A stretch of 7,363 nt of DNA, taken from positions 1 through 7,363 of the forward strand of contig JAFGKQ010000005.1 in assembly GCA_016928495.1 (NCBI GenBank), read 5' to 3'. A model generated the notes under the pieces. It did no database searches. It saw only the letters and a program-made list of their open reading frames with translations, and was not told the DNA's origin. The translations under genes and the position numbers were made by a program. This stretch comes from Candidatus Fermentibacterales bacterium. GTDB taxonomy: Bacteria; Fermentibacterota; Fermentibacteria; Fermentibacterales; JAFGKQ01. Shown one piece after another: positions 1 to 7,363 of the stretch (position 1 is the stretch's first letter; every line of letters begins with the position of its first letter).

Positions 1-810
1 GAAGACCGCGGTGGAGCCGGTGAAGTGCACGCCGGCGAGCCCCGGCTGGGCCATCACGGGGTTGCCGACCTTGCCGCCGCTTCCGGGTATGAAGTTGATC
101 ACGCCGGGTGGGAGCCCTGCCTCTTCGAACAGCTTCATCAGGAAGTACGCGGAGTAGACGGCCGAGGAGGCGGGCTTCCACAGAACCGTGTTGCCCATGA
201 GGGCAGGACTGGTAGGCAGGTTGCCGGCTATCGAGGTGAAGTTGAAGGGGGTGACGGCAAAGATGAAGCCCTCGAGGGCCCTGTACTCCACGAAGTTCCA
301 GACCCCTGGAGAGGAGTCCGGCTGGCTGGAGTAGATGTCCTCCATGTACCAGGGGTTGAACCTGAAGAAGTCGATCAGCTCGCAGGCGGAATCGATCTCG
401 GCCTGATGCGAGGTCTTGGACTGCCCGAGCATCGTGGCGGCGTTGATGGTCATCCGGTGCTTCCCCGCCAGCAGCTCGGCCATCTTCAGGAGAATGGCGG
501 CGCGAGCGCGCCAGTCGAGCTCGGACCAGTCCCTCCAGGCGTTGGCGGCGGCCTTCACGGCGAGCCCGACCTCGTCCGCGCCGGCCATGTGATACCTGGC
601 CAGAAGATGACCGTGATCGTGCGGGCACCTGCAGTCCCCGAGCTTCCCGGTCCTGACCTCTTTGCCCCCGATTATCAGAGGAATCTCGATCTCGCTGGAC
701 CTGAGTTCCTTGACTTTGCTGACGATCAGCTTCCGTTCGACTGTTCCCGGAGCATAGCTCCTCACAGGCTCGTTCTCCGGCTCCGGAATCGATATGACCG
801 CGTTGTTCAT
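1..810 (-). CDS. pruA: L-glutamate gamma-semialdehyde (1-pyrroline-5-carboxylate) dehydrogenase, N-terminal 270 residues, cut by left edge
   Basis: Seen: a minus-strand reading frame starts at ATG 810-808 and stays open to base 1 (270 codons). It begins MNNAVISIPEPENEPVRSY. The SD-like GGGGAAGGGA lies a few bases before the ATG. ALDH-superfamily motifs appear in order: TPFNFTSIAGNL at residues 187-198, WKPA at 211-214 (the Lys that contacts the NAD cofactor), a PxGVINFIPG stretch at 235-243, and HFTGS at 262-266. The segment RALEGF...VTPFNFT...ALMGNTVLWKPA matches the ALDH4A/P5C dehydrogenase branch rather than general aldehyde dehydrogenases. Known: this family oxidises glutamate semialdehyde to glutamate with NAD+, the second step of proline breakdown, in the cytosol. 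ALDH4-type enzymes are about 540 residues, so about half is present; the catalytic Glu and Cys lie outside. It has no PutA-type proline dehydrogenase domain at the N terminus, so it is the single-function type. It follows hypE on the same strand but is separated by a probable terminator, so it is likely its own transcription unit. Confidence 0.9.
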   Translation of the reverse strand, partial: MNNAVISIPEPENEPVRSYAPGTVERKLIVSKVKELRSSEIEIPLIIGGKEVRTGKLGDCRCPHDHGHLLARYHMAGADEVGLAVKAAANAWRDWSELDWRARAAILLKMAELLAGKHRMTINAATMLGQSKTSHQAEIDSACELIDFFRFNPWYMEDIYSSQPDSSPGVWNFVEYRALEGFIFAVTPFNFTSIAGNLPTSPALMGNTVLWKPASSAVYSAYFLMKLFEEAGLPPGVINFIPGSGGKVGNPVMAQPGLAGVHFTGSTAVF

Positions 811-837
811 CAGCGTCCCTTCCCCTTGCGATTGCTC

Positions 838-861
838 CGGGGTCTCCGATCGGACACCCCG
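838..861. promoter_or_regulatory. 24-bp near-perfect palindrome, candidate operator upstream of the P5C dehydrogenase gene
   Basis: Seen: the two 12-base halves (CGGGGTCTCCGA and TCGGACACCCCG) are complementary at 11 of 12 positions. The single mismatch is C844/C855. The inner edge lies 27 bases from the ATG at 810. Inference: the position and two-fold symmetry suit an operator for a dimeric regulator, or a hairpin in the leader of the mRNA. I do not recognise the motif as a known regulator site. No convincing -35/-10 pair was seen next to it. Confidence 0.45.
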
Positions 862-982
862 CGCTGTTCGAACCTGTCCGACTTGCCTCCCTGTCGTGGT
901 TGCCGGCTACCGCCGGCCAGCAGCCCATTGCTTGGATGAGAAGAGGGCCTGAGATGGCCACACCATGGGGCGCGGCTTGACG

Positions 983-1016
983 AAACTAAAGAGCCTCAGA
1001 GCGGGAAGCAAGGCTC
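983..1016 (-). terminator. Probable rho-independent terminator of the hypFCDE operon
   Basis: Seen: read on the minus strand, GAGCCT (1016-1011) pairs with AGGCTC (996-991), with two possible wobble pairs inside, and is followed at once by the T-rich tail TTTAGTTT (990-983). It lies 56 bases past the hypE stop and before the P5C dehydrogenase gene. A second hairpin lies closer to hypE: GTCCGGG 1041-1047 with CCCGGAC 1051-1057 (7 bp, 3-base loop), but it has no T tract. A longer inverted repeat (951-958 with 1023-1030, extendable to 948-958/1023-1033 with one G-U pair) encloses the terminator. The stem is short, so strength is uncertain. Confidence 0.45.
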
Positions 1017-1071
1017 GCAGCAGCCATCTCGGGACGGAGTGTCCGGGAAGCCCGGACGACGGGATACGGGC

Positions 1072-2142
1072 CTAGCAGATGCGGGGAAGCTGCTCCCCGC
1101 TGAGCATGTCCAGAACGCGCTCGGGGCCGATCATGCTCTTCATGGTAACCAGGGGCCTGCCCTCGATCGCCCTGCCCACCACGCGAGCTTCTCGCCCGTC
1201 CTCGAAGGACCCGATGGTGCGAACGCAGTCCTCCGCCGCCGATTCCGGTACGATCGCTATGAAGCGCCCCTCGTTAGCCACGTAGAGAGGATCGAATCCC
1301 AGTATCTCGCAGGCTCCACGCACGGGCTCCGAGATCGGGATCAGAGCCTCGTCCACGGTCAGGGTGATCCCCGCGGTGGCGATCTCGTTGAGAGCGCTGC
1401 CCAGCCCCCCCCTAGTGAGGTCCCTCAGGCAGTGAAGCTCGATTCCGCGTTCGATCAGAGCGGAGACCATGCCGTTGAGCGGCGCCAGATCGCTCCGCAC
1501 CGGGGAGTCGAACCTGATGCCCTGCCTGGCGGCCATCACCGCAATCCCGTGGCGGCCCAGGTCGCCGCTGAGCACTATCGAGTCGCCGGGACGGACCCTG
1601 CGTGGCGAAGGCGGATCCAGCCCGTCGGGGACCGTTCCGATGCCGGCGGTGTTGATGTAGATGCCGTCGCAGCTTCCATGCTCCACTACCTTGGTGTCTC
1701 CCGTGGCGATCACCACGCCGGCTCTACGACACGCGGCCGCGATGGACTGGACGATGCGCCAGAGCAGCTCCATCTCCAGCCCCTCCTCGAGTATGAGCCC
1801 CAGTGTAAGAGCGCTGGGATGCGCCGCGCACATGGAAAGATCGTTCACGGTTCCGTAGACGGCCATCGAGCCGATGTCCCCTCCGGGAAAGAACAGGGGG
1901 CTGACCACGTAGGAGTCGGTGGTGATGGCGATCCTGCCGCTGCCAGGGACCGGGGGGACCACCGCCCCATCATGGCGCTGGCCGAGAAGCTCGTTGTCGA
2001 GCAGCTCGACGAACATCCTCTCGATCAGGTCGTGCATGAGCCTGCCGCCTCCCCCGTGTGCCAGCGTCACCCTGGGGTAGTCCGGGATGGGAACAGGGCA
2101 GGCAGGCACGAAGCCATCCGGAGGGGTCCGCTTCTCAGTCAT
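1072..2142 (-). CDS. hypE: Hydrogenase maturation protein HypE (thiocarbamoyl dehydratase)
   Basis: Role: HypE accepts a carbamoyl group from HypF on its C-terminal Cys and uses ATP to dehydrate it to thiocyanate, the source of the CN ligands of the NiFe site; cytosolic, working with HypF and the HypCD scaffold. Seen: 356 residues from ATG 2142. The family's defining C-terminal PRIC is intact, with Cys356 as the last residue. PurM-like ATP-binding features are present: [12 protein letters not shown] (29-40), [18 protein letters not shown] (74-91), GTVNDL (97-102), TGDTKVV (147-153), GDLGRHG (193-199) and [14 protein letters not shown] (240-253). Start choice: ATG 2142 has AGGAGG just upstream and overlaps the end of hypD by 8 bases. 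An in-frame GTG at 2154 would add four residues (MRRS) and also has a GGAAGG ahead, so it cannot be excluded. Last gene of the hypFCDE operon. Confidence 0.97.
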
Positions 2143-3244
2143 GCTCCTCCTCACGGTTCCTTCCGTAGCGGTAGTAGGCAGCGCACGCTCCTTCAGAGCT
2201 CACCATCGGCGCCCCCAGCGGGTGCTCCGGTGTGCAGGCCCGGCCGAACGAAGGGCAATCCGCGGGCTGAATGGCGCCCCTCAGGACGAGGCCGCTCAGG
2301 CAGCTCCCGGCCGTGACGTCGTCCAGCTCGGCTCGGGCCTTCCCGAAGTGCTCCTCCGCGTCGAACCCGGATAGCTCTGGCCTCAGCCCCAGGCCGCTCC
2401 GCGGGATGCCGCCCAGTCCCCTCCAGGCCCTGTCCACGGTAACGAAGGCCCTGTCCATGAGGGCTCGAGCGGCAGGGTTGCCTTCCGGGCGGACCGCTCT
2501 TCCATACTGGTTCTCGACCCCGGCGACCCCCTTCTCCAGCTGGAGCACGCACATGTGTATTCCCTGGAGGATGTCGAGCGGCTCGAAGCCAGTGACCACG
2601 ATAGGGACCCCGAAGCGTGACGCTATCGGCCCGTACTCCCCGTATCCCATCACCGTGCAGACGTGACCCGCGGCAAGGAAGCCCTGGACCCTGTTGTCAG
2701 GAGAGGAAAGCACGGCCTCCATGGCGGGCGGCACCCTGACGTGCGCGACCAGGAGCGAGAAATTGAGGAGCTTCTCTCTCCTGGCGGTCAGAACGGCTGC
2801 TGCAGTCACCGGGGCCGTGGTCTCGAAACCGACCGCGAAGAAGACGACTCTGGACTCCGGCTCCTGCCTGGCAATGTCGAGAGCGTCCATGGGCGAGTAG
2901 ACGGTTCTGACGTCCCCGCCCTCGGCACGTGCGGAGAACAGGTCCCGCGAGCTGCCGGGTACCCTGAGCATGTCCCCGAAAGAGCACAGCACCGCTCCCG
3001 GAGACGCTGCGATCTCGATCGCCTTGTCTATGAGAGACACGGGCGTGACGCAGACGGGGCATCCCGGGCCATGGACGAGGGTGATGCAGCCGGGCAGAAG
3101 CCTGTCTATCCCGAACCTCACGATGGCATGGGTCTGCCCACCGCAGACTTCCATGATGGTCCAGTCCGAGGTCGAGATGTCGTGCAGGGCTTCGGCGTAG
3201 GCAGTCGCCGCCTCCCCGCTCCTGTACTCGTCCACGAACTTCAC
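2135..3244 (-). CDS. hypD: Hydrogenase maturation protein HypD (Fe-S scaffold for Fe(CN)2CO assembly)
   Basis: Role: HypD with HypC holds the iron while CN and CO are attached; cytosolic. Seen: 369 residues, usual family length, starting at GTG 3244 ([10 protein letters not shown]) whose G is also the last base of the hypC stop (TAGTG), with GGAG upstream. Conserved motifs: [10 protein letters not shown] with Cys34 (31-40), HGPGCPVC with Cys62 and Cys65 (58-65), [10 protein letters not shown] (88-97), VYSPMDAL (115-122), [11 protein letters not shown] (135-145), [11 protein letters not shown] (218-228), VENQYGR (243-249), and the C-terminal cluster region [11 protein letters not shown] (Cys330, Cys337) and [14 protein letters not shown] (Cys354). 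Odd: where E. coli HypD (from memory) has a Cys-Gly before the VLxG segment, this protein has Ser317-Gly318, with a Cys at 315 two residues earlier. That Cys is thought to be a ligand of the [4Fe-4S] cluster. The call itself is not in doubt. Confidence 0.97.
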
Positions 3245-3534
3245 TAAGGCTCCGCAGGACCGTCACGGCTGAGGGAGTCCTCCCTCGCGATGCGGCTGAT
3301 CTGGCCCAGGTACTCGAAGACCTCCGCGGCCTCCTCCTCGTCCAGAGTGTTGAGAGCGAAGCCGGCATGCACTATGACCCAGTCGCCTTTCTTCGCGTCG
3401 GGCACCCCTGCGAGGCAGACCTCACGGACCACGCCGGCGAAGCTGACCCTGCCACGCCTGTCCAGGAGGTCTCCACCGAGGCCATCCTGTGGTTCCTCGA
3501 TCTCGATGATCTGACCGGGCACGCCGAGACACAT
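3244..3534 (-). CDS. hypC: Hydrogenase maturation chaperone HypC (HypC/HybG/HupF family)
   Basis: Role: a small OB-fold chaperone that binds HypD and then the hydrogenase large-subunit precursor, carrying the Fe(CN)2CO unit. Seen: 96 residues starting [13 protein letters not shown], with the essential Cys2 exposed once Met is removed. The second family motif [12 protein letters not shown] lies at 50-61 with His56. The C-terminal part ([14 protein letters not shown]) fits the family's amphipathic helix. The last 13 or so residues ([13 protein letters not shown]) look like a non-conserved tail. The ATG at 3534 shares its A with the hypF stop (TGATG), and the stop TAG shares its G with the GTG start of hypD, so translation is coupled on both sides. 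The SD is weak (AAGGG about 10 bases upstream), in keeping with re-initiation after hypF. Confidence 0.96.
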
Positions 3535-5885
3535 CAGGAATCACCCTTCCCGGGGAGCTGGCTGAAGCAACGGTAGAGACCCATGCGAACGGCTGCGAGC
3601 TGGCCGAGCGACACCCCGCCGTCGTTGGGAGGCACCCGCTGGTGCCGGTAGGGTCTGAGTCCTGCCGCCTCCAGGTCCATAGTCGCTCTCTCTGTCAGAT
3701 ACCTATTCTGGAAACATCCGCCGGTCAGTGCCACCCTTGAAACGCCCACTCGCTTCGCGACCCCGCAGATTGCGCTCGAGAGCCAGTCGTGAAAGGCCCT
3801 CGAGATGACCTCCAGCGGAGTGTCCTGCAGCCTCATGGTCAGGATGAGATGGACCATCGGCTCCCAGTCGACGATCAGCGGCGTCCCGGCCACAGCACCC
3901 TCTCTCTGCCAGCCGGGATCCGTCCGGTCGGAGAGGACATTCTCCCGGGCCGGCTCTCGGATCGCGTGTTCGAGCATCATGGCTGCCTGACCCTCGAACA
4001 GGTTCACGTGGCAGAGGTCGCATATCGAGGCCACCGCATCGAAGAGCCTTCCGACACTGGAGGTCCTCGGGGAGTTGATGCCGGCAGCCACGGCCTTCTG
4101 AAGAGCATCGAGGCCGGCGGGATCGAGTCGCTCGAGACAGCCGAGCTCCGGAAGTCCGTCCAGGCTTCCGCCGTTCATCTCCATCAGGAGGCCCATAGCG
4201 CTGCGGAACGGCTCCCTCACGGCGGCGTCGCCTCCGGGAAGAGGGAATGGGCGAAGAGAGGCGACTCTCTCAACATCGTTGTCTCCGACCGCCAGAAACT
4301 CTCCGCCCCAGACGGTGCCATCGGGGCCGTACCCTGTTCCGTCCCATGAGACGCCAAGGACGGGCGGCTCCAGGTGGTTCTCCGCCATGCAGGACAGCAC
4401 ATGGGCGAGGTGGTGTTGCACGCGAACGACGGGAACCCCCGAAGTGGACGCGAAGAGGGTGGAGAAGTAGTCGGGGTGGAGATCGCAGGCAACGATGCCG
4501 GGTGTCGCCGCGTAGAGGCCGGTGAGGCCCTCCACCACGTCTCTGAAGGCGGTCCGGGAGGCTGCCGTCTCGAGGTCGCCCACGTGCTGACTCAGATATG
4601 CCTGATTCCCTACCCCGAGCCCGACCGTGTTCTTGAGCATCGGGCCGACCGCGAGGACAGTGGGCCCGTCCGACGAGGGCAGGTCCAGCGGCATGGGCGC
4701 GTATCCTCTGGCTCTCCGGAGTATCACGGGCCTGTCGAGGACGACTCTGGCGACCGAGTCGTCGACGTTCCTCGCGATCCTCCGGTCGTGGGCGAGGAAC
4801 AGGTCGGCGATTCCCGCCAGACGCTCCAGGGCCTCCGGGTTGGAGATGCAGATGGGCTCCTCGGAGAGGTTGCCGCTGGTAGCGACGACGGGGATCCCCA
4901 GGTCCCGCATGAGAAGGTGATGCAGGGGGCTGTAGGGCAACATGGCTCCTATGCATGGGTTGCCGGGAGCCACCTCGGGGGCGAGAACACCCTCCCGGGA
5001 CTCTATCGTCCTGTCCAGAATCACTATGGGGCTCTCGGGCGAGAGAAGCAGCTCCCTCTCCCACGCGCTGACTCCGCAATGAGCCCTGAGCGCTTCGATG
5101 TCCGGGTACATCAGGGCGAATGGCTTGTCGCCCCTCTGCTTCCTTGTCCGGAGACTGGAGACCGCCTGGCTGCTCCTCGCGTCGCAGACGAGCTGAAAGC
5201 CTCCTACGCCCTTCAGGGCAACCACGCGGCCATCCAGTATCGCCTCGACGGCCACGGACAGAGCCTCGTCGCGGATCGCCAGTCTCGTGCCTCCGGGTTC
5301 CAGCAGCTCGAGCCGTGGCCCGCACTCGGGACAGGCGTTGGGCTGGGCATGAAAGCGCCGATTCTCGGGATCCTCGTACTCGGCGCGGCACAACGGGCAC
5401 ATCTCGAACTCCCGCATCACGGTGCCGGGTCTGTCGTAGGGCAGGGACTCGATGATGCTATATCGCGGCCCGCAGTTCGTGCAGTTGATGAAGGGGTACC
5501 TGTAGCGCCTGTCCCCGGGATCGAACAGCTCTCTCAGGCAGTCCCCGCATGTCGCAATGTCCGGGAGCACGCTCGTCGAAGGGGCCTCGGTGGCATCGCT
5601 CTGCCTGATCTCGAAGCGCTCGAAGCCGACCGCATCGAGGTAGCTGCTCTCCACGCCGGCTACATGCGACCTGGGCGGGGCCTGCGTCGTGAGGGCCGTC
5701 CGGAAGCGCGAGATCGCATCGGGATCACCCTCGACCTCGACGACTACGCCTTCCGGACCGTTCATAACCCACCCATCCAGCCCCCCGGACCTGGCAAGGC
5801 GGTAGACGAAAGGCCTGAACCCGACGCCCTGAACGGCGCCTCTGACGATGCACCTCAGCCGGACTCTCTGCTGTCCGGATGCCAA
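3534..5885 (-). CDS. hypF: Carbamoyltransferase HypF
   Basis: Role: HypF hydrolyses carbamoyl phosphate, adenylates the carbamate and transfers it to the C-terminal Cys of HypE, starting CN synthesis for the NiFe centre; cytosolic. Seen: 783 residues with all expected domains in order. Acylphosphatase domain: RGAVQGVGFRPFVYRLA (15-31), catalytic Arg24 in FRPF. Two C4 zinc fingers of CX2C-X18-CX2C type: Cys113/116/135/138 and Cys163/166/185/188. YrdC-like domain about 205-400: KPFALM at 254-259, TSGNLSEEP at 336-344. Kae1-like domain about 410-770: DLHPDYFST at 468-476, metal-binding HHLAH at 491-495, SWDGTGYGPDG at 513-523, TGGCFQNRYL at 721-730, and PPNDGGVSLGQ at 752-762. The start is TTG 5885; GGAGGG lies 4-5 bases upstream and no ATG suits the conserved beginning. 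First gene of hypFCDE, divergent from hypAB. Confidence 0.97.
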   Translation of the reverse strand: MASGQQRVRLRCIVRGAVQGVGFRPFVYRLARSGGLDGWVMNGPEGVVVEVEGDPDAISRFRTALTTQAPPRSHVAGVESSYLDAVGFERFEIRQSDATEAPSTSVLPDIATCGDCLRELFDPGDRRYRYPFINCTNCGPRYSIIESLPYDRPGTVMREFEMCPLCRAEYEDPENRRFHAQPNACPECGPRLELLEPGGTRLAIRDEALSVAVEAILDGRVVALKGVGGFQLVCDARSSQAVSSLRTRKQRGDKPFALMYPDIEALRAHCGVSAWERELLLSPESPIVILDRTIESREGVLAPEVAPGNPCIGAMLPYSPLHHLLMRDLGIPVVATSGNLSEEPICISNPEALERLAGIADLFLAHDRRIARNVDDSVARVVLDRPVILRRARGYAPMPLDLPSSDGPTVLAVGPMLKNTVGLGVGNQAYLSQHVGDLETAASRTAFRDVVEGLTGLYAATPGIVACDLHPDYFSTLFASTSGVPVVRVQHHLAHVLSCMAENHLEPPVLGVSWDGTGYGPDGTVWGGEFLAVGDNDVERVASLRPFPLPGGDAAVREPFRSAMGLLMEMNGGSLDGLPELGCLERLDPAGLDALQKAVAAGINSPRTSSVGRLFDAVASICDLCHVNLFEGQAAMMLEHAIREPARENVLSDRTDPGWQREGAVAGTPLIVDWEPMVHLILTMRLQDTPLEVISRAFHDWLSSAICGVAKRVGVSRVALTGGCFQNRYLTERATMDLEAAGLRPYRHQRVPPNDGGVSLGQLAAVRMGLYRCFSQLPGKGDS

Positions 5886-6021
5886 TGCGCCCTCCCCCGG
5901 TCTGGCGAACCCGAGGTTCCCCCCGGAGCCGGCAGTTGGTTATCTTCTCCCGGTTCGTGCCCGGCATCTGGGTGCCGGGTTGTCCGGGTCATCCGATGGA
6001 AAGAGCCTGTAGTATAATCGA
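5886..6021. promoter_or_regulatory. Divergent control region between hypF and hypA, with a 20-bp palindrome
   Basis: Seen: 136 bases between the divergent starts. CCCGGCA (5960-5966) pairs perfectly with TGCCGGG (5973-5979) around a 6-base centre, making an inverted repeat suitable as an operator or hairpin. Near hypA, overlapping -10-like hexamers occur: TAGTAT at 6010-6015 and TATAAT at 6013-6018 on the plus strand, and TATACT on the minus strand (6016-6011) pointing to hypF. No matching -35 was found at 16-18 bases for any of them, and no clear sigma-54 (GG/GC) pair was seen. Inference: both hyp operons are driven from here and may share the palindrome as an operator. Confidence 0.4.
5890..5895 (-). 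promoter_or_regulatory. Ribosome binding site that sets the TTG start of hypF
   Basis: On the minus strand GGAGGG is followed by CGCA and then TTG (5885-5883). The spacing fits a normal Shine-Dalgarno site, and the next codons give ASGQQRVRLRCIVRG, which leads directly into the acylphosphatase domain. No ATG lies nearby in this frame, so TTG is the best-supported start. Confidence 0.6.
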
Positions 6022-6393
6022 ATGCATGAGCTTTCGTTAGCCGTTGACATGCTGGACCTCATCTCGGGAGCGCTCGGCGGGGCACAGCCTCTCGAGCAGG
6101 TGAAGGTGACCATCGGCGTTCTCTCGGGCATCTCCCCGGAGGCGCTGGATTTCTGCTTCACCGAGATCGCGCTCGAAAGGGGCTTCGGGAGGCCGAGGCT
6201 CGTAGTAACCGAGGTCGAGGCCAGCCTCCGGTGCAGCGACTGTGGAGCATCCTACTCCACCTCCGATTTCTACTGCGCATGTCCTGCCTGCGGCTCCATG
6301 AACAGGACGATAAGGAGCGGACGGGAGTTCTCCGTGGACAGTGTGGAGATACTCACGGACGAGGACGAAGAGGTGGAAGAGGAGCCCTCATGA
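6022..6393 (+). CDS. hypA: Hydrogenase nickel-insertion protein HypA
   Basis: Role: HypA binds nickel and, with HypB, inserts it into the large subunit of NiFe hydrogenase; a zinc site controls its shape. Seen: 123 residues starting MHELSLAVDML, with the N-terminal His2 and Glu3 that make up the nickel site. The zinc domain has CSDC at 71-74 and CPAC at 87-90, plus an extra Cys85. The C-terminal tail (LTDEDEEVEEEPS) is unusually acidic and makes the protein a few residues longer than the common 113-118. Start: ATG 6022 is fixed by the conserved MHE. There is no Shine-Dalgarno sequence before it (AGTATAATCGA), and a TANNNT hexamer ends 6 bases upstream, so the message may be leaderless. The stop overlaps the hypB start as ATGA. 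Confidence 0.96.
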   Translation: MHELSLAVDMLDLISGALGGAQPLEQVKVTIGVLSGISPEALDFCFTEIALERGFGRPRLVVTEVEASLRCSDCGASYSTSDFYCACPACGSMNRTIRSGREFSVDSVEILTDEDEEVEEEPS

Positions 6394-7043
6394 GCGACAG
6401 CAAGGGCAGAAAGACGATCAGCGTGCTCTCCCCGGTGATGGAGAAGAACCGGAGGATAGCCGCCTACAACCGGAAGCGCTTCGACGAGAGAGGCCTGAAC
6501 GTTCTCAACCTGATCAGCTCTCCGGGCGCGGGTAAGACCACTCTCCTCGAGGTTCTCGTGAGGAGGTTCGGCCGGGCAATCGCGGTCATCGAGGGTGACG
6601 TCCAGACGGAGCGCGACGCGGAGAGGATACGCGCGGCAGGAGCGGTCGCCTATCAGATAGAGACACACGGGGCGTGTCATCTCGACGCCCAGAGAATATC
6701 CGACGCCTTCGACAGGATGGTCATACCCTCCGAGTGCAGGATACTGGCCATAGAGAACGTGGGGAACCTGATCTGCCCCAGCACCTACGACCTGGGTGAG
6801 CACCTGAAGATAGGGCTGCTCTCCCTCCCCGAGGGCGACGACAAGGTCCTGAAGTACCCGCCCCTGTTCTCTCGGGTAGACCTGCTCGTCGTAACGAAGA
6901 TGGACCTGCTGCCACACATGGACTTCGATCCGGATCGAGTCGAGGCCGAGTGCAGGAGCCTCAACCCCGACGTCCGCTGCTTCAGAGTGTCCGCCAGGAC
7001 AGGAGAGGGCATCGACGCCCTCTGCGCAGAGTTATGGGGATAG
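6390..7043 (+). CDS. hypB: Hydrogenase nickel-incorporation GTPase HypB
   Basis: Role: a SIMIBI-class GTPase that dimerises with GTP and passes nickel to HypA for insertion into hydrogenase. Seen: 217 residues from ATG 6390, with GGAG 5 bases upstream and ATGA overlap with hypA. The P-loop is SSPGAGKTT (43-51). Further motifs are EGDVQTERDAERI (68-80), the metal and switch region ETHGACHLD with Cys96 and His97 (91-99), IENVGNLICP with Cys129 (121-130), SLPEGDDKVLKYP (145-157), and the guanine-specificity motif TKMD (169-172) where many members have NKxD. There is no N-terminal CxxCGC motif or His-rich stretch, so it lacks the extra nickel site or store of E. coli-type or Bradyrhizobium-type HypB. 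The last three codons before the TAG stop (TTA TGG GGA) are a copy of the TTATGGGG repeat that borders the palindromic element downstream, so the original C terminus may have been altered. Confidence 0.96.
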   Translation: MSDSKGRKTISVLSPVMEKNRRIAAYNRKRFDERGLNVLNLISSPGAGKTTLLEVLVRRFGRAIAVIEGDVQTERDAERIRAAGAVAYQIETHGACHLDAQRISDAFDRMVIPSECRILAIENVGNLICPSTYDLGEHLKIGLLSLPEGDDKVLKYPPLFSRVDLLVVTKMDLLPHMDFDPDRVEAECRSLNPDVRCFRVSARTGEGIDALCAELWG

Positions 7044-7061
7044 TTATGGGTAGTTATGGGG
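7032..7061 (+). repeat. Three tandem copies of TTATGGG(G) at the hypB stop
   Basis: TTATGGGG begins at 7032, TTATGGG at 7044 and TTATGGGG at 7054, joined by ATAG and TAG (periods 12 and 10). The first copy encodes the last residues of HypB and its TAG stop. The third copy is the start of the left arm of the 127-bp palindromic element. This looks like partial duplication of the element end by slippage or repeated insertion. Confidence 0.7.
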
Positions 7062-7180
7062 ACACAACACTTAATTCGCCTTGGGCTGATGAGGCTCGCC
7101 GTCCGGGCGACCTGCTCAGGGGGATGCCCGGCCGCCAGCCTGAAGAGCGCCGGCCGGAATTAAGTGTTGTGTCCCCATAA
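7054..7180. mobile_element. 127-bp palindromic element with perfect 24-bp inverted arms (REPIN/MITE-like)
   Basis: Seen: the left arm 7054-7077 (TTATGGGGACAC...) and right arm 7157-7180 are exact reverse complements over 24 bases. The 79-base core is itself folded. One hairpin pairs CTGA 7086-7089/TCAG 7116-7119, AGG 7092-7094/CCT 7111-7113 and TCGCC 7096-7100/GGCGA 7106-7110. Another pairs CCGGCCG 7128-7134 with CGGCCGG 7151-7157. TAG flanks both ends (7051-7053 and 7181-7183), a possible 3-bp target duplication or chance. The element is too small for a transposase. The arms are much more AT-rich than the neighbouring genes. Inference, partly from memory of similar GTGTCCCC-ended palindromes near IS200-like (Y1/RAYT) transposases: a non-autonomous element mobilised by a Y1 transposase elsewhere. 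It also sits between convergent genes and may act as a two-way transcription stop, although no T tract follows. Confidence 0.65.
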
Positions 7181-7363
7181 TAGCTTCAGGAGGGCCGAGA
7201 GGGCTTGCTCGAGCTCCCCGCTCAGCCCTTCCCCGAAGGCTACAGAAGCCGGCTGAACAGCCAGCATGCGCACCCGGCAGCCTTCCGGCAGGCTCGCCAT
7301 GAGCCTCTCGAGGAACAGCGACGGGGAAAGGTCATGGGTCGCAATGCCGCTACGCGAGATCTC
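7160..7363 (-). CDS. HycI/HyaD-type hydrogenase maturation protease, C-terminal 67 residues, cut by right edge
   Basis: Seen: the minus-strand frame is open from the right edge and ends at TAA 7162-7160. It reads EISRSGIATHDLSPSLFLER..., then MLAVQPASVAFGEGLSGEL, and ends KLLWGHNT. The THxLSPSLFLE segment and the QPxSxxFGEGLS segment are hallmarks of the C-terminal half of nickel-hydrogenase maturation endopeptidases (peptidase family M52). Known role: these bind the nickel of the nearly finished large subunit and cut off its C-terminal tail, the last maturation step. The metal-binding Glu/Asp/His of the N-terminal part are outside, so only the family is called. Odd: the natural end should be near the KLL residues. 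The final WGHNT and the stop codon are written by the right arm of the palindromic element, so the element has replaced or overrun the original 3' end. The gene converges on hypB; its own operon, perhaps with hydrogenase subunits, should lie to the right. Confidence 0.82.
   Translation of the reverse strand, partial: EISRSGIATHDLSPSLFLERLMASLPEGCRVRMLAVQPASVAFGEGLSGELEQALSALLKLLWGHNT

Follow-up and report, generated by a model that had tools for sequence, protein, structure and literature searches.

A probable REPIN-like dimer of terminal inverted repeats at the convergent 3' ends of hypB and a hydrogenase maturation protease gene in a Candidatus Fermentibacterales bacterium

The window, a 7,363-nt stretch of contig JAFGKQ010000005.1 (assembly GCA_016928495.1, positions 1 to 7,363) from a Candidatus Fermentibacterales bacterium, ends in two convergent genes, hypB (6393-7043, plus strand) and the 3' part of a HycI-type hydrogenase maturation protease gene (7160-7363, minus strand), at whose facing ends lies a palindromic element. 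The element is composed of a left arm, TTATGGGGACACAACACTTAATTC (7054-7077, plus strand), a GC-rich core of 79 nt with no assigned strand (7078-7156), and a right arm (7157-7180, minus strand) that is a perfect inverted copy of the left over all 24 nt. A 24-bp inverted repeat at 7054-7180 is far beyond chance, the longest inverted repeat across 300 first-order Markov resamples of the window being 14 nt. The arms have a GC content of 37.5% against 64.8% for the window; both the perfect pairing and the AT-richness of the arms relative to their surroundings, as given in a preliminary description made from the sequence, were confirmed. With a probability of about 0.87, the element is a REPIN-like pair of terminal inverted repeats (a TIR dimer), non-autonomous and part of a TIRtron-type system, and its arms are most likely acted on by a REP-associated tyrosine transposase (RAYT), or TIRYT, of which contig C90 of the same genome encodes an example.

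The 127 bp first delimited hold the perfect arms, but the true extent of the element exceeds them, with partial end copies reaching back to position 7030. The outer end AGTTATGGG(G/T) occurs three times in tandem from 7030 to 7061 (three matches against 0.15 expected), and AGTTAT is the most frequent outer flank among the arms of the family. Two of the copies, AGTTATGGGG at 7030-7039 and AGTTATGGGT at 7042-7051, make up the part at 7030-7053 on the plus strand, while the third, at 7052-7061 on the same strand, has its first bases within that part. Both genes end inside these repeats: the final codons of hypB, LWG-stop (7032-7043), fall within a partial arm copy, the HypB proteins of relatives having other tails, and the protease C-terminus, LLKLLWGHNT-stop, lies inside the right arm, with its stop codon at 7160-7162. 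Direct repeats of at least 12 nt, which could represent the target-site duplication of a classical MITE of a DDE transposon, were absent from window positions 6900-7363, a search in which shorter duplications were not systematically covered and the boundaries are blurred by the tandem end copies.

The protease was read on an overlapping contig, C233, and the naming of both neighbours as hydrogenase maturation genes was upheld. Positions 7175-7363 of the window and C233 13214-13402 form a 189-bp overlap, 94% identical, whose start falls inside the right arm; the two contigs probably represent strain variants at a place where the assembly broke next to a repeat. C233 extends the window through the protease gene and then a gene for a 4Fe-4S protein. 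A contig end 183 nt downstream of the element, together with a neighbouring contig that begins within the right arm, is what could be expected if the palindrome had been made by assembly. Such an origin, or one by chance, deserves almost no credence, as it is opposed by the 14-nt limit in the resampled windows and by a family of many copies over many contigs.

That family was counted by pattern search in the source genome (G000), a fragmented assembly of about 81% completeness. The arm pattern with up to 3 mismatches gave 29 matches and its commoner variant 36, against 0 for the reversed control pattern, and these family arms (about 36) are spread over many contigs. Most copies carry GGGGACACA[A/T]CACTTATCTC, and the variant GGGGACACAACACTTAATTC is found in the window copy only. 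The arms are multi-copy; the core, like the 127 bp as a whole, occurs once in the genome. Fourteen facing-arm pairs were read, some nested at one locus and one enclosing a transposase gene; the paired copies amount to about a dozen, and solo arms are also present (contigs C265 and C271). At 11 of 14 other loci, a frame that is open for at least 90 codons and faces the element stops near an outer end, from 26 nt outside to 12 nt inside it and mostly at the end itself; these are open frames, not individually checked as genes. A text search of the literature with the arm sequence returned no relevant match.

Several copies show structures of their own. On contig C34 (L037, 429-744) a core of about 90 bp and an arm are tandemly duplicated at about 91% identity, giving nested arms of two subtypes, and on contig C301 (L043, 413-565) a second inverted pair of the GGGTACATAACATCTATCTC type is nested within the outer arms. 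GAGATAA precedes some arms (L039, 395-414, on contig C205; L042, 484-503, on contig C299) and is complementary to TTATCTC at their inner end (GAGATAAG...CTTATCTC), so that a single arm on these contigs could fold into a REP-like hairpin whose loop is GGGACACAACA. The window arms have no pairing partner of the GAGATAA type.

The source genome contains two Y1_Tnp genes, one of which lies between arms of this family. The RAYT gene on contig C90 (L035, 482-1198, minus strand) is a 238-codon frame with HVH and YAHQNP motifs, flanked by a perfect 24-bp TIR with the arms TTATGGGGACACATCACTTATCTC, and its reading frame terminates within its own arm (GEISDVSP-stop). The protein scores at the Pfam cut-off for Y1_Tnp, the sole domain found by Pfam, with no helix-turn-helix (HTH) domain among the matches; its best NCBIfam model is the REP-associated tyrosine transposase (REP_Tyr_transpos) at 62.6 bits, under the cut-off of 80, and no sequence matching it was found in PDB. 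The second gene, on contig C225 (L036, 1130-2209), has 359 codons; it was considered as the partner transposase and rejected, as no family arms were found nearby.

The association of arms and transposases extends over the order. RAYT homologues were found in 27 of its 42 genomes, and many of them have inverted repeats of their own, of the types AGGGACGGAGGTAATT, AGTGCCACCCAC, AATAGTG...CACTATT, GGGGACAGACTCC and GGGGACGGGGG. In a tree of 24 RAYTs the TIR type tracks the RAYT clade. TIRs of the AGGGACGGAGGTAATT type reach 47 arms per genome in genus g2 and number 0 in the source genome. Clade-specific TIR types, together with a repeat population present in genus g2 and absent from the source genome, form the pattern expected of transposases co-evolving with their own ends. 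Two RAYT loci (L119 in G032 and L120 in G038) have self-complementary, REP-like ends (AATAGTGACAGGCACTATT), and the rest of their clade has longer TIRs.

The locus itself was compared with two syntenic relatives, G002 and G001, in which hypB is likewise convergent with a HycI protease gene, followed by a protein with a similar CxxCRRxT tail. No arms were found between hypB and the protease gene in either relative; in G002 the ends of these genes share 35 bp, and in G001 a gap of about 108 bp lies between them. Since the same convergent pair stands without the element in two relatives, the element is a derived state of the source lineage, and its later arrival there would be the simplest reading. 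The preliminary description had proposed a REPIN or MITE moved in trans by a Y1/RAYT transposase, to be checked by copy number, by a transposase gene with the same ends and by a relative lacking the element. The proposal is well supported by multi-copy arms, by family arms on either side of a RAYT gene in the same genome, and by absence from the same gene pair in two relatives. A single copy, arms remote from any transposase and the same structure at the same place in relatives, which had been held to speak against mobility, are contradicted on all three counts.

The whole strand folds into a single long hairpin (z scores of -6.8 as DNA and -8.6 as RNA), with an RNA energy of -83 kcal/mol. At minimum energy it forms a single stem, nested and irregular, and the 79-nt core, when folded by itself, does not exceed mononucleotide shuffles in stability (z -1.0). 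The stability of the hairpin thus comes from the arms, and the two further hairpins earlier placed in the core are an unsupported feature. A long hairpin between convergent genes, in a family of which many members sit at gene 3' ends, is also what would be seen if the element were a bidirectional terminator or an mRNA 3'-end stabilizer kept by selection, its mobile ancestry being incidental. This explanation is improbable, however, because the terminator scan found no terminator-like stem with a T run on either strand, because the syntenic relatives manage without such a structure (even with overlapping genes in G002), and because the same arms occur at unrelated loci. The two-way terminator proposed at the outset was therefore not borne out by the scan, while the long RNA hairpin could still influence the 3' ends of transcripts.

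Agreement between arms is a property of each element. Within-element arm mismatches total 5 against 15.7 under shuffled pairing (p 0.00025), and core length ranges from 19 to 148 nt. BLAST and alignment between elements found core matches limited to nested arms and one tandem duplication. Global alignment of the window core with that of the C205 element, both 79 nt and in opposite orientation, yielded p 0.0175, which is unconvincing over 210 comparisons. Identical arms are also present in most other copies, so that arm identity is not a mark of age and does not show the recent arrival once suggested from it.

Three observations weigh against the reading of the element as a transposase-mobilized TIR dimer. 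The cores differ between elements, unlike the expectation for a simple copy-and-move unit; three positions separate the window arm (TTAATTC end) from the C90 arms (TTATCTC end); and G002 and G001 are distant (HypB about 56-59% identical), with no base-level empty site. Given the difference between the arms, the transposase proper to this element may be a RAYT other than that of C90, one that has been lost or was not assembled. As to the cores, it could be that different stretches of host DNA become enclosed when RAYT-type arms are placed or copied, or that one arm is rewritten from the other, without the doublet moving as a fixed unit, which we consider unlikely. A related and equally doubtful explanation is that mainly local DNA events, such as hairpin-templated arm correction, keep the arms identical, or even make them, around unrelated host spacers, the doublet not being a replicating unit. 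It would account for arms that agree around unrelated cores of 19 to 148 nt and for the solo arms on C265 and C271, but in G039, G009 and G016, genomes with related RAYTs, the dimers keep a constant spacing of 25 or 86 nt from one arm start to the next, which fits unit movement. REPINs have conserved ends and a less conserved spacer (PMC3116915), and the pattern of arms and cores thus fits unit movement with fast-changing spacers.

The mobility of the element is strongly suggested by these comparisons of sequence, from which it is inferred rather than observed. In the transposase-based model, a RAYT/TIRYT with HUH and Y---NP tyrosine motifs, like that of C90, would most likely recognize the arms, and would cut and join them as single-stranded DNA. 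The dimers would spread to gene ends, often at or adjoining stop codons, and the copy studied here would have inserted where hypB and the hycI-type gene converge, supplying or overlapping both 3' ends. Movement of the arms by the C90 RAYT, the single-strand mechanism and any target preference are what we infer. With this element the little-studied TIRYT systems gain an uncultured lineage. The comparison shows that within one bacterial order every RAYT clade has a terminal repeat peculiar to it and can possess a separate population of repeats in the genome, and it illustrates how such elements may settle at gene ends and rewrite the stop codons and C-termini of neighbors.

Among known systems, Pseudomonas REPINs (Bertels and Rainey 2011, PMC3116915) likewise have two inverted conserved ends and a spacer, can fold as one hairpin, are tied to a RAYT and are mostly extragenic, whereas here the GTAG tag is absent, the spacer varies widely in length and sequence, and the dimers number about a dozen, not hundreds. 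GTAG REPs, BIMEs and REPtrons (E. coli TnpA_REP) share a Y1 HUH transposase adjoining inverted repeats, and repeats at gene 3' ends that supply stop codons; the arm here, however, is not a GTAG-tagged short stem-loop, since neither a GTAG tag nor a self-complementary stem was read within the window's arm sequence, which sets it apart from REP ends. The closest likeness is to the RAYT-like genes flanked by TIRs of consensus GGGGWSAS that encode the "TIRYT" transposases of Di Nocera et al. 2013, whose TIRs form dimers and moderately abundant families; REP ends are also known to supply stop codons to adjoining genes (PMC3733652). The segment GGGGACAC in the arm fits this consensus, which makes the element a TIR dimer of a REPIN-like, non-autonomous kind. 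As in TIRtrons, long TIRs that contain GGGGWSAS lie on both sides of a RAYT-like gene, here that of C90, and further TIRs are found in other parts of the genome, singly, as dimers or in clusters. The C90 transposase differs in having no HTH in Pfam, a domain typical of most TIRYTs and not defining, since the HTH-bearing subclass 2.1 holds 20 of the 26 published TIRYTs and 6 lie outside it (PMC6006769). In conclusion, the element is a fresh example of the class described in 2013, not a new class.
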